DNA from: Bdellovibrionales bacterium
GTDB taxonomy: Bacteria > Bdellovibrionota > Bdellovibrionia > Bdellovibrionales > UBA1609
Length of the DNA stretch: 49,807 bases
Direction of reading: 5' to 3'
NCBI GenBank assembly: GCA_020630675.1
Contig: JAHDIR010000019.1
Span: 1 to 49,807, forward strand
In this document: positions 24,447-49,807 of the stretch, one piece after another
Layout of the letters: each line of letters opens with the position of its first letter
Position numbering within the stretch: the first letter of the stretch is position 1
Position numbers and translations under genes: made by a program
The notes under the pieces: generated by a model
What the model saw: only the letters and a program-made list of their open reading frames with translations
The model's database searches: none
Told to the model about the DNA's origin: nothing

Positions 24447-24474
24447 TTAAGAAATTCAGTAGAATTTCCGATAA
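24447..24474 (+). promoter_or_regulatory. Sigma-28-like promoter of the coiled-coil gene
   Basis: TTAAG (24447-24451) precedes TCCGATAA (24467-24474), which matches GCCGATAA at 7 of 8 positions. The spacing equals that of the LamG array promoters (TTAA, 16 nt, -10 box). The predicted +1 is about 24481, two bases before the ATG. Confidence 0.5.
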
Positions 24475-24482
24475 CTTGCTAG

Positions 24483-25373
24483 ATGAAGAAGAAAAAGGGA
24501 AAAGTTTTAGCATTAGAGCTCGTTGATGACTTGTTGGCCGAAGGGTCTTCTGAGTCTAACGAACTTCAGTCTTTAAAGACAAGCACTGAGCAGGAAATAG
24601 AGTTAGCTAAAACAGAAGTTCTTCCTTTGAACTCTCAAACAACATCTTCACGAACAGACTTAACAACTAAACTTACAGATGAAGAGCTCAGTCAATTCGA
24701 GATGGCTGACTTAGAAATACCTCAGCCGTCGAAAACAACCTCGAGCTTGAGAACTCATGCAGGGGCTCGAAGTCAAACAGAACTCAATTTAGATCATTCA
24801 ATGAATTTAAAACGGGCTCAGGAAAAAATCTTAGACCTAGAATCTATGATTGAGGATTTGCGTCGTGAAAACGAGAAACTCCATGCAGCCAGTCAGACCT
24901 TTAAAAAGCATGGAGATGAACTTCAAGTTCGTGTAAGTGACCTACAGTTGGAGCTATCGTCCCTAAAAGACCAAGCTCAAGATGAGAAGAAACTATTGAT
25001 GTCGGCCATTGATCAAAAAGAGAGATCTTTGGATGGGGAACGACTAGAAAAAGAACAATTGCAAAGTCGTTTAAACTCAAACTTAAAAAAGATTAGAGTC
25101 AGAGAGCGAGAATTAGAAAATCGCCTTGAGATTGTTCGTTTGGAAAACTTCTCTCTGCAAAGAAGTAAAGATGAGCATATACTTGGCCTAAAAAGACAGA
25201 TTGATGAGATTGATACCGAGTTAGAATCCTATAGAGATAAAGCTAAATATATAAGTTTAGAACTGCAAAAAAAGAAACAAATGTTAAGAAAAACCGTGAA
25301 GGCTCTTCGATTAGCTTTAACATTACTTGAGAGTGATGAAAAAGATTTAAAAGTAGCTGCAAATGGTGACTAA
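24483..25373 (+). CDS. Coiled-coil protein of unknown function
   Basis: This 296-aa acidic/basic mixed protein has no signal peptide or membrane segment. Residues of about 1-95 are Ser/Thr/Glu-rich and probably disordered. Residues of about 105-275 have heptad-like Leu and charged residues, consistent with a long coiled coil. I do not recognise the family. No SD precedes the ATG; instead a sigma-28-like -10 box lies 8 bases upstream, suggesting a leaderless mRNA. The genes downstream are a metallophosphoesterase, pgi and a diguanylate cyclase, so a signalling or cytoskeletal scaffold role is possible but speculative. Confidence 0.65.
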   Translation: MKKKKGKVLALELVDDLLAEGSSESNELQSLKTSTEQEIELAKTEVLPLNSQTTSSRTDLTTKLTDEELSQFEMADLEIPQPSKTTSSLRTHAGARSQTELNLDHSMNLKRAQEKILDLESMIEDLRRENEKLHAASQTFKKHGDELQVRVSDLQLELSSLKDQAQDEKKLLMSAIDQKERSLDGERLEKEQLQSRLNSNLKKIRVRERELENRLEIVRLENFSLQRSKDEHILGLKRQIDEIDTELESYRDKAKYISLELQKKKQMLRKTVKALRLALTLLESDEKDLKVAANGD

Positions 25374-40990: not shown

Positions 40991-41495
40991 ATTAGCCATT
41001 GGCTTTTCAATTATTTTTTCTTCAGTGAGTTTACTGGCTGAATGGAAAATAGATTTAAGCCGACGGGCAAGAGAAATAGGTGTTGATAAATATGTGGAAG
41101 TCATACCTAAAGAAGAAAAAAAAGAAGTATTTCAGTATTACTACTCAAATAAACATCCTATTCAAGAACTTGTTATTATGAGTACAGAAAAAGGGTTTGT
41201 ACCTGAGTCTGTGAGTTTAAAAGCTGGGGTTCAATATAGAATTCATTTAGTCAATGTAAACAAACAAGAGCAAAATACTAGTTTTGTCATGGCCTCATTT
41301 TCTCAATACCACTCTATGTTTTATGGTAGAACTAAATCATTTATTTTACACCCTAAAAAAGAGGGTATATATAAGTTTGAATCTCCAGAAACAGATTATA
41401 TTGGAAAGCTTATAGTTCATAGCTCTGAAAAAAAACAAGCCAATTCTGAAACTCATATTGATTTAGAAAGAGGTTTGGCCTCGGAAGGAAATTAA
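40950..41495 (+). CDS. Cupredoxin-like periplasmic protein
   Basis: This 181-aa protein has an N-terminal signal or anchor (IKLAIGFSIIFSSVSLLA) and a beta-sandwich region from about residue 75. There FVPESVSLKAGVQYRIHLVN resembles the cupredoxin fold seen in copper-binding and related domains. The usual Cys/His copper ligands of a type 1 site are not evident, so it may be a structural cupredoxin fold. The GTG start at 40950 follows GGAGG (40939-40943) by six bases and lies inside the preceding gene. CpaF starts 3 nt after its stop. Confidence 0.6.
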   Translation: MNFQIFMNVRKFIKLAIGFSIIFSSVSLLAEWKIDLSRRAREIGVDKYVEVIPKEEKKEVFQYYYSNKHPIQELVIMSTEKGFVPESVSLKAGVQYRIHLVNVNKQEQNTSFVMASFSQYHSMFYGRTKSFILHPKKEGIYKFESPETDYIGKLIVHSSEKKQANSETHIDLERGLASEGN

Positions 41496-41498
41496 ACT

Positions 41499-42605
41499 TT
41501 GAGTGATAGCTCCAATGTCTTTATAGATTCTTTAAAAAATTTCTTAGCGCCAGTCGCTGACTTACTTGATGACGAGTCTATAACTGAAATAATGATTAAT
41601 GGGCCGGAAGAAATTTGGGTAGAGTCAGCAGGTAAAGTTACAAAAGCAACAGCTCAGTTTCCTGATGAAGATTCTTTACGGGCAGCAGTTAATAATATTG
41701 CTCAGAGTGTAGGTCGAAGGGTGAATGATGAAGAGCCACGGCTAGATGCTAGGTTACCTAATGGCTACCGAATTCATGCTGTAATACCTCCCTGTGCAAG
41801 AAACGGCACAACAGTAGCTATACGTAAGTTTTCTAAGGTAAAAATGACATTTAAAGACTATGTTAAATTTGGATCAATATCTGTTGATGCCGCTCAGTTT
41901 TTAGATATATGCATGAAGTTGGGGAAAAATGTTCTTGTTAGTGGAGGAACGGGATCTGGAAAAACCACACTTTTAGGAGTACTTTGTGATCGCATTCCTA
42001 ATGGGCAGCGAATTATTGTTATTGAAGACTCTTCCGAATTAAGTGTGGACTACGAGCATGTTGTTTTTTTTGAAACAAAGGCTGAAGATGCTCAGGGAAA
42101 TGGTGAGGTTAGTATTCAAGACTTAGTCAAAAGTAGTTTAAGGCTAAGACCTGATCGCATAATTGTAGGAGAGGTCAGGGGCTCTGAATCTTTAGATTTA
42201 GTGCAAGCCATGAATACGGGGCACAAAGGTTGTTTGGGGACGGTTCATGCCAACACGGCAGACGGAGCTTTACTAAGGTTAGAGGCACTATCGCAAGGTA
42301 GTGACAGTAAGCTCAGTGAAAAAGCTTTACGGCAACAAATTTGTTCTGCCATTGATATCGTCATTCAAATTTCTAGGTACGCCGATGGCTCTCGACGCAT
42401 AGGAACTATTGCTGAGGTTTTAGGTTTTGATGAAAACGGAGACTATAACGTTGTTCCTATATATGAGATGAGTCGTCTCATTAAAAAAGCCGATGGTACT
42501 TTGCAGGGACAGGTCGAAGCCACAGGAGTGGTTCCTAGTTTTATCAATGAGATTATCGACAATGGCATTCCATTTTCTGTTGATAAATTCAAAACTTCAG
42601 CCTAA
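41499..42605 (+). CDS. cpaF: CpaF/TadA-type secretion ATPase
   Basis: This 368-aa hexameric ATPase of the type II/IV secretion family powers Tad/Flp pilus assembly in other bacteria. Walker A GGTGSGKT is at 149-156, the Asp box and Walker B region include IIVGEVRGSESLDLVQAMNTGH, and the His box is GTVHANTA. The start is a TTG at 41499 after AAGGAAA. No other tad/cpa genes (cpaB, C, E, tadB, tadC) are in the window, so it is an orphan here. It is coupled to the cupredoxin-like gene, so it may serve a distinct envelope system. Confidence 0.9.
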   Translation: MSDSSNVFIDSLKNFLAPVADLLDDESITEIMINGPEEIWVESAGKVTKATAQFPDEDSLRAAVNNIAQSVGRRVNDEEPRLDARLPNGYRIHAVIPPCARNGTTVAIRKFSKVKMTFKDYVKFGSISVDAAQFLDICMKLGKNVLVSGGTGSGKTTLLGVLCDRIPNGQRIIVIEDSSELSVDYEHVVFFETKAEDAQGNGEVSIQDLVKSSLRLRPDRIIVGEVRGSESLDLVQAMNTGHKGCLGTVHANTADGALLRLEALSQGSDSKLSEKALRQQICSAIDIVIQISRYADGSRRIGTIAEVLGFDENGDYNVVPIYEMSRLIKKADGTLQGQVEATGVVPSFINEIIDNGIPFSVDKFKTSA

Positions 42606-42645
42606 TTTTAAAATTCTACTTTCGTATAGATTATAAAAATAGTGT

Positions 42646-42702
42646 GAGTTAAATATTTTCTTAATTCCATTTTTTTTAAAAAAAATTCTTATTTTTTAAC
42701 TC
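42646..42702 (+). terminator. Possible terminator after cpaF
   Basis: The arms GAGTTAAA and TTTAACTC enclose an AT-rich segment with an internal T8A8 palindrome. It ends 14 nt before the GCCGATAA box of the LamG array. Weak and AT-rich, but well placed. Confidence 0.3.
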
Positions 42703-42723
42703 TGCCTTAGTTTTTGCCGATAA
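42696..42723 (+). promoter_or_regulatory. Sigma-28 promoter of LamG array gene A
   Basis: TTAAC (42696-42700) and a perfect GCCGATAA (42716-42723); read as TAAC-N15-GCCGATAA it matches the TAAA-N15-GCCGATAA consensus except one base. Six bases later comes the GTG start (42730), so the predicted +1 is its G. Confidence 0.62.
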
Positions 42724-42729
42724 ATAAGA

Positions 42730-45700
42730 GTGAAAAATTATTTTTTGTTAGTTTTTTATAGCTTTCTTTTTTTATATATTTTGCCGTCCTGTGAATATAA
42801 AAAAACATCTTTTGAGCTAGACGCTTTGTTTGAACCGACATTAGATTTTTCTAAAACGTCTCAATTTACTTTTGATGAAAACTTTGTCGAAGTGAAAAAT
42901 GGTAAAGCTCAACTAAAACCATTAGACTTAAAACAAACAGAAAACGATTTTAATCGTGGAAATTATGTTGGCACTTTTTATGACTCTCAATCAAAAGTTA
43001 TCCGCCCCTTAGAGATTGATCAAGTGAATGTAAACTCAATACTTCCGAACCGTCTTTTAAATTTACAAGGCTACTGGAAGTTTGATGGCGATTACCATGA
43101 TCAGTCCATGAACAATGATTCAGGGGTCACTTCTGGTGGCGTTGTTTTTGAGCCCGGTTTAGTAAGGCAAGGTGTTTCTCTTGATGGTATTGATGGTTTT
43201 GTTGACCTTGGTTCTTCCGTGGTCGATACAGGCTCAGGCCAAACATTTAGTATTTCATTTTGGACAGAAGTGGATAGTTATACCGCAAACTACCTAGCGA
43301 CCATTGGCCACAGGTTCATTCATACAGATAGCCATCAATATGGTTTAATGTGTTTCTCACATGATTACTCAGGGTCATTAGAGTTTAGATGTGGTTATCG
43401 GTATTACGACTCTGGAATAAGTTACTCAGAAAGAAAAATATTTGGTAACTTAACGGGTTGGCAACATGTGGCTATAACTTCTGATGGAACGAATGTTTTT
43501 TATTATCATAACGGCAGTTTAGTTGATACAGGAGTTACAGGAACAACCCCTAGTAATATAGGCCAGAGTTTATTCTTGGGAAAAAACTTACCCATTAGTT
43601 CTCATTTTTCTGATTCTAAAATAGATGAGCTTGCGATTTATAACACTCAATTGACAAGCGTAGAGATCAATAAATTATATTCTAATAGTGTTTTATCAAC
43701 AGAACTTTCTTCGAGTTGGGCTCCTAAATGGGATAACCTCGTTGGCTACTGGAAAATGGATGGTAACTGGCGAGACTCTTCAGGAAACAATTATCATATG
43801 ACAGCCCAAAATGGCTCAGCCTTTATTTCTGACTCAAAGGTGGGTATTCATAGTGGTGTCTTTGATGGGTCGGATGATCTTTCAACATCTTCAGCGAATA
43901 TACCTTCACTCACTTCTAGTTCAACTTTTTCAACATGGATTCATCGAAGTGTCAGCTCGGGAACCGATAGGGAGTCAATTATTTCAAAGGCTGGTGGAAG
44001 CGATGACGTTACGGGCTCTCGACAACCTAGAATGGACATTTATAATAATAAAGCGAGACTAATTATGAGGCTCGCAGGAGTAAATTATATAATTAGTTCC
44101 GTCAGTAATATTGAAAAGGAAAATTGGTACCACTTAGTTGGTACATATGACCATGTCAGTGGAGCAGCTAGTGTTTATGTAAATGGGTCCTTAGAGGCCA
44201 CGAGTATAATTCCTGCGATGTCTATTGTTGGACAGACGGGCGGAATTGCTTTGTCGAGCTCTTATGGATACGAAGCTTCCGAAACCTACAGATGGAACGG
44301 TAGTATAGATGATGCGGCTGTTTGGAGTGTGAGCCTTTCTCCTGAAGAGGTTTTCTTAATTTATAACCGTCAAAAGCAAAAATACGCCGGCCACTTTGAT
44401 TCGGAAGTGATTGATTTAGGAAGTACAACTTCTAATTGGCCAGACCTGTCTTGGTCAACCAGTTTGCCATTTGGCAAAGAGTTAGTGGGTGACTATAATA
44501 ATGATGGCAATACCGAAAGTGAAAGTTCTTTAAGTTACTCTTCAATTTACCAACAATTGAATCATGGTTTAATTTCGTATTGGAGCTTTAATGAAGAAGT
44601 AACTGGTACAGCACCTTCCGGGTTAGATCTCAAAGATTTAGTCGGAAGTAACCATGTTTCCATTCATAGTAATTTTAATTTAGGAAAAACTGGTCTATTA
44701 TCAAAGGCTATAGAACTACCCGGAACGCCTAACACTATTGGGATTGCTGACTCAAATGCCTTAAAGCCTACAGATGAACTAACCTATGTCATATGGTATA
44801 AAAGGTACCCTAACAACCCTCAAGAATACTCTGGCTTTGTAATCAATGAATCTTTTGGCGACGGACAGGGAACTTACTTTGGAGATTATTCAGGGGGTGG
44901 TGATGACGTCATTTGCTTTAGAGTTAATGCTGACAATACAAACGGTGTTTGTGAACCTAATGTAGTTTTTTATAGATGGGTTCATTACTCTGTTACATTC
45001 AGTAATGGGTCATTAAAATTTTACAGAGACGGAATTTTAGTTGATAGTTCAACAACTTCAAATGCAACAATTACTCCAAGAGTAACGACGTCGTTAATAC
45101 TTCATTACTTAAATGGCTTAGCCGATGAACTGGCCATTTGGGAAAGGGCTCTTTCCGCAGACGAAGTTCAACAAATTTACCGTCGTGGTGCGAATCGAAT
45201 TAAGTTACAAGTAAAAAGCTGCGTAGACTCTAATTGCGAGTGTAAAAGCTTTAGCTCCTCTCCGCAAGGCTCGGCAGCAGACTGTGATGGTGACACTATC
45301 GTAAATGCTTTAGATTTTGATGACCCTCATAAGGCCGATTTCATAGGCCCTGGTGGCGATGGCGCCACTTATTATTCTGAAGCCTTTAACCGCAAAGGTA
45401 CGGACACACTTTTTAATTGCGGAAACAATACTTCAGACAGTGATGGAAATATATGTGTAAACGATGAAATTAGTTTGATCGGTAGCCCAAAACCAGAAGG
45501 CCCCTCTATTGATTTTACTGACTTTCCTTTGTCGGCAAAACCATTAGACAATCAATATATTCAGTACCGTGTTTATATGGAAGCCGATGACAATACGGCT
45601 TGTCAGGGCAGTCCTTGTTTGCCAGAGCTTTCATCTGTGAATCTAAACCCAAGTGGAGCTACTAAATACTATGGAAGCGTGCAAGAAATTAAATCCATTC

Positions 45701-45990
45701 AACCGATCATTTATAAAGACATTCAATCTGTCAAAGTGATTGCTGATGATTGTGTGACCTATCAGTTAAGTCCGGATGGTACAAACTACTATCATTGGAT
45801 ATCTAATGCCTGGGCGCCGGTGACCTCTCATATAGATAGCTCCAATCAGTCAGATTTTGCAAATTATATTTCTAATTATTCAAGTCAGTTTGGTTCAGGT
45901 CAGCTTTTTATAAAAGCTCTTTTACAAACAAACTCTCAGCAAAGCTCCAATTGTTCAATCAAGTCTATAGACTTTAATTACTCTAAGTAA
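42730..45990 (+). CDS. Giant LamG-repeat lipoprotein, array gene A
   Basis: This 1086-aa surface lipoprotein has the lipobox ILPSC (Cys20-21). A shared N-terminal segment is followed by three LamG/concanavalin-like modules (about 115-320, 335-550 and 615-810), each opening with a GYWKFDG-type motif. The C-terminal 284 residues have Cys pairs and Asp-rich Ca-binding-like loops (DCDGDTIVNALDFDD). Constant segments match gene B base for base, while the LamG modules differ. The start is a GTG without SD, next to a sigma-28 -10 box. The likely role is adhesion or recognition at the cell surface. Confidence 0.8.
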   Translation: MKNYFLLVFYSFLFLYILPSCEYKKTSFELDALFEPTLDFSKTSQFTFDENFVEVKNGKAQLKPLDLKQTENDFNRGNYVGTFYDSQSKVIRPLEIDQVNVNSILPNRLLNLQGYWKFDGDYHDQSMNNDSGVTSGGVVFEPGLVRQGVSLDGIDGFVDLGSSVVDTGSGQTFSISFWTEVDSYTANYLATIGHRFIHTDSHQYGLMCFSHDYSGSLEFRCGYRYYDSGISYSERKIFGNLTGWQHVAITSDGTNVFYYHNGSLVDTGVTGTTPSNIGQSLFLGKNLPISSHFSDSKIDELAIYNTQLTSVEINKLYSNSVLSTELSSSWAPKWDNLVGYWKMDGNWRDSSGNNYHMTAQNGSAFISDSKVGIHSGVFDGSDDLSTSSANIPSLTSSSTFSTWIHRSVSSGTDRESIISKAGGSDDVTGSRQPRMDIYNNKARLIMRLAGVNYIISSVSNIEKENWYHLVGTYDHVSGAASVYVNGSLEATSIIPAMSIVGQTGGIALSSSYGYEASETYRWNGSIDDAAVWSVSLSPEEVFLIYNRQKQKYAGHFDSEVIDLGSTTSNWPDLSWSTSLPFGKELVGDYNNDGNTESESSLSYSSIYQQLNHGLISYWSFNEEVTGTAPSGLDLKDLVGSNHVSIHSNFNLGKTGLLSKAIELPGTPNTIGIADSNALKPTDELTYVIWYKRYPNNPQEYSGFVINESFGDGQGTYFGDYSGGGDDVICFRVNADNTNGVCEPNVVFYRWVHYSVTFSNGSLKFYRDGILVDSSTTSNATITPRVTTSLILHYLNGLADELAIWERALSADEVQQIYRRGANRIKLQVKSCVDSNCECKSFSSSPQGSAADCDGDTIVNALDFDDPHKADFIGPGGDGATYYSEAFNRKGTDTLFNCGNNTSDSDGNICVNDEISLIGSPKPEGPSIDFTDFPLSAKPLDNQYIQYRVYMEADDNTACQGSPCLPELSSVNLNPSGATKYYGSVQEIKSIQPIIYKDIQSVKVIADDCVTYQLSPDGTNYYHWISNAWAPVTSHIDSSNQSDFANYISNYSSQFGSGQLFIKALLQTNSQQSSNCSIKSIDFNYSK
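42838..42902 (+). repeat. Constant block 1, gene A copy (65 bp)
   Basis: Identical to 46282-46346 in gene B. Encodes the post-signal segment TLDFSKTSQFTFDENFVEVK and a few further residues. Confidence 0.88.
43716..43787 (+). repeat. Constant block 2, gene A copy (72 bp)
   Basis: Identical to 47172-47243. Encodes the junction between the first and second LamG modules, WAPKWDNLVGYWKMDGNWRD and a few further residues. Confidence 0.88.
44358..44525 (+). repeat. Constant block 3, gene A copy (168 bp)
   Basis: Identical to 47832-47999. Encodes the linker between the second and third modules, including YNRQKQKYAGHFDSEVIDLG and the Asp/Asn-rich DYNNDGNTESE. Confidence 0.9.
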
Positions 45991-46173
45991 CGAAACACTC
46001 CAGATTGTTGAAATATATTTTTAACTCAAAATCTATGCCTTTTTTTATGGGCCTAGGTATAGTTAGCTATTTAGTCCCGTAAAAGAGGTAATTAGATAAT
46101 AAAAAGCCAAATTTATTTACAAAAACTAACCGTAATTCTTTAATTCTCATATCATATTTGCCGATAAATAAGA
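45991..46173. other. Spacer between array genes A and B
   Basis: This 183-nt AT-rich spacer is repeated identically after gene B (49462-49644). It ends in the sigma-28 -10 box and GTG start. The T7 run near 46040 may serve termination; no strong hairpin is seen. Confidence 0.5.
46140..46167 (+). promoter_or_regulatory. Sigma-28 promoter of LamG array gene B
   Basis: TTAAT (46140-46144) and perfect GCCGATAA (46160-46167), with the same spacing to the GTG (46174) as gene A. The 5' spacer differs from that of gene A except for this core. Confidence 0.62.
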
Positions 46174-49100
46174 GTGAAAAAACCAGTATCATTAGTTATT
46201 TATATACTCTTTCTTTTTTTGATACTCCCATCTTGTGATTACAATAAAACTTCATTTGATCTACCTTCCATTTTTGAACCTACATTAGATTTTTCTAAAA
46301 CGTCTCAATTTACTTTTGATGAAAACTTTGTCGAAGTGAAAAATGGCAAAGCCCAGTTGAAAGCTTTAGACCTTGAGCATTCTGAAAGTGATTTTAATAG
46401 TGGAACTCATGTGGGAACTTACTTCAACAATAGTAGTTCAGATGTTAGTTTATTAAATTTTGACAACTCTAACCTATTAAATATTCTTCCCTCTAGGGCA
46501 GGAAACATATTTAGTTATTTGAGGCTAGATGGTGGCTTTAATGCAGAAAGTGGATTCGACGGTACTCCCAATAATGGAGGATCAGGACTTACTGTGACTG
46601 ATGGTAAAATAAATAATGGAATCATGTTTGATGGGTTAGATGATAGTATTAGTTTTGTTGCCCCTACTTTTACACAACTTTCAGCAAGTGCATGGGTAAA
46701 GCTAGAGAGCTATACAAATAGTTATCCAAGGTTTTTAGAATTAAATTTTAACTTTTCTGTTTGGGTTCAACAGCCACCAGAGCCGCCATGGGGAGACTTA
46801 GGCTCTGTTTATATTCGAGCAACCCACTCAGGTACCGATGGCTACTGGTATAGCGCTCCTGGCACCATTGAATTAGGAAAACTATACCATATTACTTTAT
46901 CTTACGATTCAAGTTCTAATACAAATAAACCTTTACTTGTTATTAATGGTCAGGTTGTACAACTCTTTGAAAGGTCTAAACCGGTAGGAACTTTTAATAA
47001 TACTGCAGGAACTGGTTATCTTGGGAACTGGGGGCTACCAAGTTCAAGAAACTGGCATGGGGTTATGGATGAATATGCTATTTTTGATGTTGCCTTGAGC
47101 GAAAGTGATCTTATTAAGATTTACGAATCACAAGAAAAATTTCAACTGTCAGACACGAGCTTACACCCTTCTTGGGCTCCTAAATGGGATAACCTCGTTG
47201 GCTACTGGAAAATGGATGGTAACTGGCGAGACTCTTCAGGAAATGGGAATCATGGTACTGTTTTTAATGGAGCCACAATTTCATTTGATGCCAATGTAGG
47301 AAACTCGGCAGGTTTATTTAACGAGTTAGTTAGTCATGATTATATTGAAATACCCAACACTACCGACTTGGAGAATATTCAAGCAGGACCATTTACAATG
47401 CAAGCTTGGTATAAGCCATTGAATGTACCAAGAAATATTGATCAAAGTACTAGAGCTCATGGTATTTTTAGTAAACCTGGTTGGCATGTCGGATTGGACT
47501 ATAATAATGATAACTCTTTTAGGTTCAATGTTCCAAATCATACTCCAGCACATCAACGTGCAACATCAAATCCAGTTTACCAAACGGGGACTTACTATCA
47601 CATTATGGGTGTATCTGATGGGCCTGGTGGGTTAGTTAAGTTATATGTAAATGGTAAATTGGTATCAATGGTTCCAAATACAGGAAGTTTTCCTAGCTAT
47701 GGTACGAATAATTTTTATATAGGAACAGGGTCACCGACTCTAAGTCCGGCCCATTCAACCTGGGCGGTTGATGGAATCATTGATGATGTGGCTCTTTGGA
47801 ATACTAACCTTAAAGCGATTGATGTCATTAAAATTTATAACCGTCAAAAGCAAAAATACGCCGGCCACTTTGATTCGGAAGTGATTGATTTAGGAAGTAC
47901 AACTTCTAATTGGCCAGACCTGTCTTGGTCAACCAGTTTGCCATTTGGCAAAGAGTTAGTGGGTGACTATAATAATGATGGCAATACCGAAAGTGAAAGC
48001 TCTTCTGTTTATTTTAGATTAAGTGAAAATTTAAATGAAGGGCTTGTAGGCTATTGGCCTTTAAATGAAAAAACACTTGATAGCGTGGGAGGAGCTGACT
48101 TTGCTGACTTCTCGGGAAATAGTTATGCATGTGATATCATTGTTGGTGGAGTTATTGCCAGTGAAGGCAAACTTGGCTCTTCATTTTCAGATGGTCAAGC
48201 GAGCTGTGGAGATAATTTAGCCTTTTCTGGAAGAAGTTCTTTTTCGGTTTCGGTATGGTTTAAAACTCTACTTAGCGGTTCTGGGCAGTTTTTTATGATT
48301 GTAAATAAAAGAGCAAACCCTGGCACTGGTCTTGAGGGTTGGGTATGCTACTTAGCAGGTAGTTCAGGTAAAGCTAGTTGCCGAAGAACTGTAGGGGGTG
48401 TTGAAAATGCCATCAACTCAATATCTCTTTTAAACGATGGGCTGTGGCATCACCTAGCTGCAACCTATGATGGTAATGTTGTTAAAAACTATGTTGATGG
48501 TGTGCTTCAAGGCACAGTAGTTGATACAAGAGATTTAATAAATGCTGGGCAAGATTTATCTTATGGTGATAATCAAGCCGATGCAGGTTCTGTGGATGAA
48601 GTTGCTATTTGGGAAAGGGCTCTTTCCGCAGACGAAGTTCAACAAATTTACCGTCGTGGTGCGAATCGAATTAAGTTACAAGTAAAAAGCTGCGTAGACT
48701 CTAATTGCGAGTGTAAAAGCTTTAGCTCCTCTCCGCAAGGCTCGGCAGCAGACTGTGATGGTGACACTATCGTAAATGCTTTAGATTTTGATGACCCTCA
48801 TAAGGCCGATTTCATAGGCCCTGGTGGCGATGGCGCCACTTATTATTCTGAAGCCTTTAACCGCAAAGGTACGGACACACTTTTTAATTGCGGAAACAAT
48901 ACTTCAGACAGTGATGGAAATATATGTGTAAACGATGAAATTAGTTTGATCGGTAGCCCAAAACCAGAAGGCCCCTCTATTGATTTTACTGACTTTCCTT
49001 TGTCGGCAAAACCATTAGACAATCAATATATTCAGTACCGTGTTTATATGGAAGCCGATGACAATACGGCTTGTCAGGGCAGTCCTTGTTTGCCAGAGCT

Positions 49101-49461
49101 TTCATCTGTGAATCTAAACCCAAGTGGAGCTACTAAATACTATGGAAGCGTGCAAGAAATTAAATCCATTCAACCGATCATTTATAAAGACATTCAATCT
49201 GTCAAAGTGATTGCTGATGATTGTGTGACCTATCAGTTAAGTCCGGATGGTACAAACTACTATCATTGGATATCTAATGCCTGGGCGCCGGTGACCTCTC
49301 ATATAGATAGCTCCAATCAGTCAGATTTTGCAAATTATATTTCTAATTATTCAAGTCAGTTTGGTTCAGGTCAGCTTTTTATAAAAGCTCTTTTACAAAC
49401 AAACTCTCAGCAAAGCTCCAATTGTTCAATCAAGTCTATAGACTTTAATTACTCTAAGTAA
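46174..49461 (+). CDS. Giant LamG-repeat lipoprotein, array gene B
   Basis: This 1095-aa paralogue of gene A has the lipobox ILPSC, the same constant segments and the same C-terminal 284 residues, but three different LamG modules. The first opens IFSYLRLDGGF, the second is entered through GNHGTVFNGATIS, and the third opens GLVGYWPLNEK. Module ends share SLSE/LSADEVQ-type helices (ADEVQQIYRRG). The GTG start has no SD and lies seven bases after the sigma-28 -10 box. It is a surface adhesin-like lipoprotein; the ligand is unknown. Confidence 0.8.
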   Translation: MKKPVSLVIYILFLFLILPSCDYNKTSFDLPSIFEPTLDFSKTSQFTFDENFVEVKNGKAQLKALDLEHSESDFNSGTHVGTYFNNSSSDVSLLNFDNSNLLNILPSRAGNIFSYLRLDGGFNAESGFDGTPNNGGSGLTVTDGKINNGIMFDGLDDSISFVAPTFTQLSASAWVKLESYTNSYPRFLELNFNFSVWVQQPPEPPWGDLGSVYIRATHSGTDGYWYSAPGTIELGKLYHITLSYDSSSNTNKPLLVINGQVVQLFERSKPVGTFNNTAGTGYLGNWGLPSSRNWHGVMDEYAIFDVALSESDLIKIYESQEKFQLSDTSLHPSWAPKWDNLVGYWKMDGNWRDSSGNGNHGTVFNGATISFDANVGNSAGLFNELVSHDYIEIPNTTDLENIQAGPFTMQAWYKPLNVPRNIDQSTRAHGIFSKPGWHVGLDYNNDNSFRFNVPNHTPAHQRATSNPVYQTGTYYHIMGVSDGPGGLVKLYVNGKLVSMVPNTGSFPSYGTNNFYIGTGSPTLSPAHSTWAVDGIIDDVALWNTNLKAIDVIKIYNRQKQKYAGHFDSEVIDLGSTTSNWPDLSWSTSLPFGKELVGDYNNDGNTESESSSVYFRLSENLNEGLVGYWPLNEKTLDSVGGADFADFSGNSYACDIIVGGVIASEGKLGSSFSDGQASCGDNLAFSGRSSFSVSVWFKTLLSGSGQFFMIVNKRANPGTGLEGWVCYLAGSSGKASCRRTVGGVENAINSISLLNDGLWHHLAATYDGNVVKNYVDGVLQGTVVDTRDLINAGQDLSYGDNQADAGSVDEVAIWERALSADEVQQIYRRGANRIKLQVKSCVDSNCECKSFSSSPQGSAADCDGDTIVNALDFDDPHKADFIGPGGDGATYYSEAFNRKGTDTLFNCGNNTSDSDGNICVNDEISLIGSPKPEGPSIDFTDFPLSAKPLDNQYIQYRVYMEADDNTACQGSPCLPELSSVNLNPSGATKYYGSVQEIKSIQPIIYKDIQSVKVIADDCVTYQLSPDGTNYYHWISNAWAPVTSHIDSSNQSDFANYISNYSSQFGSGQLFIKALLQTNSQQSSNCSIKSIDFNYSK
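46282..46346 (+). repeat. Constant block 1, gene B copy (65 bp)
   Basis: Identical to 42838-42902 in gene A, and to the visible part of gene C at the window end. Confidence 0.88.
47172..47243 (+). repeat. Constant block 2, gene B copy (72 bp)
   Basis: Identical to 43716-43787 in gene A; sequence diverges on both sides. Confidence 0.88.
47832..47999 (+). repeat. Constant block 3, gene B copy (168 bp)
   Basis: Identical to 44358-44525 in gene A; sequence diverges on both sides. Confidence 0.9.
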
Positions 49462-49630
49462 CGAAACACTCCAGATTGTTGAAATATATTTTTAACTCAA
49501 AATCTATGCCTTTTTTTATGGGCCTAGGTATAGTTAGCTATTTAGTCCCGTAAAAGAGGTAATTAGATAATAAAAAGCCAAATTTATTTACAAAAACTAA
49601 CCGTAATTCTTTAATTCTCATATCATATTT

Positions 49631-49638
49631 GCCGATAA
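49631..49638 (+). promoter_or_regulatory. Sigma-28 -10 box of LamG array gene C
   Basis: Perfect GCCGATAA, seven bases before the GTG at 49645, identical to the gene B promoter. Confidence 0.6.
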
Positions 49639-49644
49639 ATAAGA

Positions 49645-49807
49645 GTGAAAAAACCAGTATCATTAGTTATTTATATACTCTTTCTTTTTTTGATACTCCC
49701 ATCTTGTGATTACAATAAAACTTCATTTGATCTACCTTCCATTTTTGAACCTACATTAGATTTTTCTAAAACGTCTCAATTTACTTTTGATGAAAACTTT
49801 GTCGAAG
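49645..49807 (+). CDS. LamG-repeat lipoprotein, array gene C (5' part only)
   Basis: This is the first 54 codons of a third tandem paralogue, cut by the window end. The signal peptide, lipobox LPSC and start of constant block 1 are identical to gene B. The variable LamG modules lie outside the window. The array therefore has at least three members. Confidence 0.8.
   Translation, partial: MKKPVSLVIYILFLFLILPSCDYNKTSFDLPSIFEPTLDFSKTSQFTFDENFVE

Follow-up and report, generated by a model that had tools for sequence, protein, structure and literature searches.

In Borrelia vlsE and in the Neisseria pilE/pilS system, constant flanks serve as recombination sites for variable parts. Among predatory bacteria, 'tip swapping' has been proposed for the mosaic adhesive trimer (MAT) fibres of Bdellovibrio bacteriovorus (PMC10769870). 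Here we describe a family of giant LamG lipoprotein genes in a bacterium of the Bdellovibrionales, the order to which predatory Bdellovibrio belongs, starting from two neighbouring members, genes A and B. The window analysed is the whole of contig C27 (49,807 bp), part of a 3.1-Mb, 110-contig draft genome (G000) whose close relatives are Bdellovibrionales metagenome-assembled genomes (MAGs). Genes A and B each carry three LamG modules (L1, L2 and L3) set between constant blocks, and we consider it fairly probable that the family is a three-slot frame whose modules have been reshuffled by homologous recombination at these blocks, yielding a predicted repertoire of attack-phase adhesins.

Both the MAT fibres, which come from a related group of predators, and the LamG proteins are large candidate surface adhesins whose part nearest the cell is conserved and whose binding domains vary. 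MAT fibres are trimeric and have one C-terminal tip, whereas the LamG proteins are predicted lipoproteins with three internal slots between constant blocks; for the LamG family, unlike the MAT fibres, the exchange joints can be located in the DNA. The constant flanks are shared with vlsE and pilE, but the family has no expression locus fed by silent donors, and change is seen between species and not within the genome. Promoters predicted from sequence match the FliA consensus of the B. bacteriovorus attack-phase regulon in motif and spacing, and the modules share the fold class of the Laminin_G_3/concanavalin A-like lectin superfamily, from which sugar binding is only predicted. A search of a paper library found no literature linking LamG or concanavalin A-like lectins to Bdellovibrio.

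Identity blocks and diverged modules in genes A and B

The initial annotation had described four DNA-identical blocks in A and B (65, 72, 168 and at least 1,201 bp) separated by clearly different LamG modules, and both observations were reproduced, the blocks to the base. The fourth comprises an exact coding match of 855 bp that runs on, with no mismatch, across the intergenic DNA and into the gene that follows. In codon windows, the proportion of synonymous sites that differ between A and B (pS) is far from uniform: it is 0 across the entire C-terminal block and the core of block 3, and 0.5-0.9 (saturated) in the LamG modules, which share 13-40% of their amino acids and differ by indels. Immediately upstream of block 4 the codons for the conserved DE-x-AIW motif carry silent differences right up to the edge, so that this sharp boundary is not the mere end of protein conservation.

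The identity of the A and B blocks is far beyond chance, since no other pair drawn from the ~30 gene copies and fragments in the genome has an exact match above 88 bp, and the constant blocks of other family pairs have a median pS of 0.70-0.77, near saturation, with median protein identities of 60-74%. The 'frozen' constant blocks first described are hence a property of this neighbouring pair and not of the family, elsewhere in which conservation is at the protein level only; a four-gene array on contig C33 of the congener G003 has no identical blocks of this kind. As to their origin, A and B could be old paralogues that were homogenised, or a recent duplicate whose modules were replaced, and both readings fit.

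Genealogies of modules and frame

Our results support different genealogies for the constant parts and the modules, with modules exchanged one or two at a time. In this genome and its relatives, LamG modules have a background identity of ~25% (99th percentile 35%). Ten main-family module pairs reach at least 40%, and the slot is kept in 10/10 (p 1.7e-5); where the gene pair has a second comparable module, this lies at background in 8/8 cases. Indeed, every conspicuous module match among the 496 main-family gene pairs is limited to one module. A low-copy sister gene (C60, G003 C29, G002 C39 and G002 C151) served as a control, and here L2 and L3 both reach at least 36% in 6/6 comparisons.

Module trees give several genes a different partner in each slot. 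Gene C33d of G003 groups with 73d in L1, 67b in L2 and 97 in L3; C98 of G001 groups with C45 in L1 and C37 in L3; and B groups with C47 of G003 in L1 and with C9/C37 of G003 in L2. Approximately unbiased (AU) tests on the C-terminal tree reject the pairings 73b with G3C33c (p 4e-41), 97 with G3C33d (p 3.5e-8) and B (equal to A) with G3C33a (p 2e-53), which in the module trees have support of 100/100, 100/99 and 100/100, respectively.

Replacement can also be followed at single loci. Synteny links C17 of this genome to C12 of G003, with flanking genes 60-80% identical, and their family genes share 48-100% in C-terminal windows against 4-36% in the preceding L3 windows, the change falling at the module boundary. 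G106 and G107, two species of another genus, have one homologue each. Their upstream DNA and N-terminus are 87.3% identical over 1,009 bp (86.9% over 8.5 kb including the flank) and their C-termini 84.9%; L1 is unrelated (46.7% in DNA, 31% in amino acids), and a single mismatch separates the two along the 1,470 bp from L2 through the linker to L3. The joints lie in block 2 (WKMDGNW/QDSSGN) and RRGANRIKYQVKSCVDSSCNCK, that is, in the blocks that bound the A/B identity. This is the pattern that homologous recombination at constant blocks predicts, and the L2-L3 tract is an apparent interspecies transfer.

A different explanation, which we find unlikely though worth serious weight, is concerted evolution alone: old paralogues would retain the modules they were born with while gene conversion homogenises the constant blocks, and cross-species matches would be the slowest-evolving modules. 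It accounts for A and B directly. C-termini cluster by species, and the C-terminus of the syntenic C12 gene of G003 groups with the paralogues of its own genome and not with C17 (p 0.0003). We do not take the species clustering as proof, because lineage-specific amplification would look identical. A GENECONV-like permutation on the C-terminal block singles out 41a/54, and 41a with 67c and 16c in the 3′ part, when all codons are used, a setting that conserved segments inflate; on silent codons the same block yields nothing in this genome. Against concerted evolution alone stand the different partners in different slots of one gene, the single-module rule, kept in all testable pairs, and the single-copy genes of G106 and G107, in which a wholly different L1 precedes a nearly identical L2-L3, a contradiction unless a chimera is involved.

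Some results weigh against module exchange. A metagenome chimera is possible for G106/G107 if the two were co-assembled (the G107 assembly has only ~10 contigs). The pairing of 54 with 73e is not rejected in the C-terminal tree (AU p 0.19), and most AU tests within the module trees, where identities are 25-50%, are borderline because the branches are long. No module pair in this genome holds an exact match of 36 nt or more, which means that no recently moved module was found and hence that no active within-genome cassette shuffling is seen. The proposal of module exchange at the constant blocks is upheld by the decoupled genealogies, the single-module matches and the breakpoints in the blocks, and does not extend to active shuffling of cassettes within the genome; the exchange detected is old, or between species.

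Assembly and extent of the family

The exact A/B identity and the third gene copy at the contig end may be partly due to assembly collapse. C27 stops at 49807, precisely where the first 55-mer of the 65-bp block is complete (49753-49807 = 46282-46336 = 42838-42892). Elsewhere in the genome, two pairs of contig ends share overlaps of exactly 55 bp, so that the end of C27 looks like a branch point of a k=55 de Bruijn graph. It follows that the third copy may reflect a loop of the graph back into B and not a resolved gene, and that bulge removal by the assembler may have erased isolated differences between the A and B blocks. A full artefact, in which a short-read assembly collapsed repeats to give the identical blocks and the third copy while the true copies differ, is in our view very improbable: collapse hides isolated differences only, other paralogue pairs in the same assembly retain theirs, and the module evidence is independent of A/B identity.

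The genome holds ~15 complete or nearly complete family members and ~8 copies broken by contig ends, a count that contig breaks and N runs make a rough lower bound. Many copies break at contig ends, often within the C-terminal block, and five N runs of 2.8-3.3 kb, adjoining family genes or a FliA-type site, probably hold further members (Table 1). The A/B frame recurs in a gene on C14 (233 bp at 88%, upstream DNA and 5′ end), whose modules, where comparable with those of B, are unrelated; in a stub on C89 (147 bp at 90%); and in a fragment on C98 (183 bp of the C-terminus at 94%). As C98 bears the DNA that follows the array site in G003, it may be the other end of the A/B array. In G003 itself the secretion ATPase gene that marks the site is followed by a VWA-like gene and then enolase (names assigned by reading), with no array; in G002 the contig stops 5 bp past the ATPase match. 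The C89 stub (L049, 13985-14407) has the family N-terminus and a FliA-type promoter, lacks a LamG module and contains a 100-N gap, and is either the remains of an array or an artefact of scaffolding. G046, G049 and G051 (L175-L177), which belong to a different family of the order, encode proteins of 1382-2049 amino acids whose ends have the frame described here with two LamG domains; between L176 and L177 the identity is 46% over 1013 amino acids.

Table 1. Features of the A/B array and of related tracts on other contigs (positions on C27 unless stated)
Feature	Position	Strand	Remark
TadA/VirB11-like secretion ATPase, syntenic anchor of array site	41499..42605	+	NCBIfam TIGR03819; 85-86% identical in G002 and G003
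FliA (sigma28)-type promoter of A, TTAAC-N16-CCGATAA	42696..42723	+	match to PMC3627812 consensus
Gene A, three-LamG lipoprotein (predicted), 1086 aa	42730..45990	+	
Constant block 1 in A, 65 bp, same as in B	42838..42902	+	exact match
Module L1 of A	43030..43715	+	edges approximate
Constant block 2 in A, 72 bp	43716..43787	+	exact match
Module L2 of A	43788..44357	+	
Constant block 3 in A, 168 bp	44358..44525	+	exact match
Module L3 of A	44526..45135	+	54% identical to its partner, L3 of a G003 gene; support for this clade 100/100
Constant block 4: C-terminal region of A, then intergenic DNA, then B promoter and 5′ end	45136..46336	+	identical to 48607-49807
FliA-type promoter of B, TTAAT-N16-CCGATAA	46140..46167	+	
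Gene B, three-LamG lipoprotein (predicted), 1095 aa	46174..49461	+	
Constant block 1 in B, 65 bp	46282..46346	+	exact match
Module L1 of B	46474..47171	+	59% identical to L1 of contig-end gene C47 in G003
Constant block 2 in B, 72 bp	47172..47243	+	exact match
Module L2 of B	47244..47831	+	
Constant block 3 in B, 168 bp	47832..47999	+	exact match
Module L3 of B	48000..48606	+	
Constant block 4, second copy, reaching contig end	48607..49807	+	exact match
5′ end of third gene, same sequence as B	49645..49807	+	possibly assembler graph loop
Near-identical 1,470-bp tract	L171:3950-5419 (G107)		counterpart L172 (G106)
N runs, each the size of one family gene	G000 C64:17171-20455, C64:24361-27129, C73:89100-92306, C73:95889-99170, C66:1031-4258		probably further members

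Candidate promoters, predicted function and proposed mode of exchange

The FliA consensus of B. bacteriovorus, TTAAG-N16-CCGATA, is present at 92 of 140 mapped attack-phase promoters (PMC3627812). In the genome studied here, which has fliA, a CGATAA-type −10 box (CGAT followed by AA, AT or GA) was found at 18/18 scored main-family 5′ ends, nearly all of which also carry a TAA-containing box at the FliA-consensus spacing; in A and B the spacing fits exactly. The regularity of the −10 box is partly built in, because the sites were aligned on it. Leave-one-out scores with the FliA matrix range from 4.7 to 23.6 and reach 10 or more at 16/18 sites. The same −10 element occurs in most G003 members and is absent from the sister gene. 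Across the genome, TTAA-N17-CCGATAA occurs 11 times, with 6 sites at family genes, the stub or a gene-sized N run, and one directly upstream of a short gene adjoining the flagellins; as the backward control pattern occurs 7 times, single sites are weak and the family-wide regularity is the evidence. The flagellin upstream regions, our positive control, scored poorly with the matrix, which weakens this control and counts against the promoter assignment. Expression of the family in the swimming, or attack, phase is nonetheless likely.

Within the window, an exact TTAAG-N16-CCGATAA site lies at 24447-24474, 8 nt before the start codon of a gene (24483-25373) for a 296-amino-acid coiled-coil-like protein. 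In A and B the −10 box ends 6 nt before the GTG start (42716-42732 in A), and several further exact sites have a distance of 5-8 nt to a start codon; FliA transcripts with little or no leader are possible.

Pfam finds three Laminin_G_3 stretches in each protein (163 and 195 bits in A and B, cut-off 27.6), in agreement with the LamG identity originally assigned to both, and Foldseek returns laminin LG and neurexin LNS chains as the nearest structures. The signal peptide of A and B has a lipobox, ILPSC, with a similar sequence pattern in nearly all paralogues, and both are predicted to be bacterial lipoproteins. Neither a fibre nor an S74 domain appeared in the Pfam and NCBIfam scans. An AlphaFold2 model of full-length B has a mean predicted local distance difference test (pLDDT) score of 57, and neither the linker block nor the bulk of the C-terminal region is resolved in it; our guess that L3 sits within a split beta-sandwich concerns a part that this model does not resolve. 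Taken with the FliA motif, the LamG domains and the lipobox predict an attack-phase adhesin or lectin, and prey recognition would be a further step from there.

Programmed switching of the antigenic-variation type, through silent cassettes, a diversity-generating retroelement or invertible segments, is suggested by the outline of tandem copies with constant flanks and variable cores, but we consider it very unlikely, as all scored copies whose 5′ end is intact come with a promoter and a lipoprotein signal of their own, where promoterless donors and one expression site would be expected, the genome has no module donors and only one N-terminal stub without a module (C89), its sole reverse transcriptase (L170, on another contig, C82) reads like a group II intron maturase rather than an enzyme of a diversity-generating retroelement, and a search around A and B found no long inverted repeats (only weak short pairs of 76-88% in 41000-49807; recombinase genes were not searched).

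In the reshuffling that we favour, the constant N-terminal, linker and C-terminal blocks would act as homologous landing sites, at which general recombination of the RecA type (gene conversion or crossover) would join paralogues, or genes of different species. Such an event could replace one or two LamG modules while keeping the frame, or homogenise the frame while the modules stay. Over evolutionary time this would produce genes with independent combinations of L1, L2 and L3. Since each gene bears its own FliA-type promoter, the repertoire would probably be made in the motile phase, and, if exposed at the surface, it may bind varied glycans on prey or on another surface. A broader proposal, in which a predator lineage holds a three-slot lectin repertoire on a sigma28-controlled frame, its slots reassorted within and between species and its prey or glycan range evolving combinatorially, is more tentative, and we would put it somewhat short of an even chance.

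The family bears on the question of how predatory bacteria recognise prey of many kinds, for which it provides a concrete list of candidate adhesins, with readable module combinations, joints located in the blocks and attack-phase promoters predicted from sequence. Among bacteria it is also a clear case of recombination separating the genealogies of frame and modules, including an apparent 1.47-kb transfer between species, and it offers a testable model for the evolution of recognition range.

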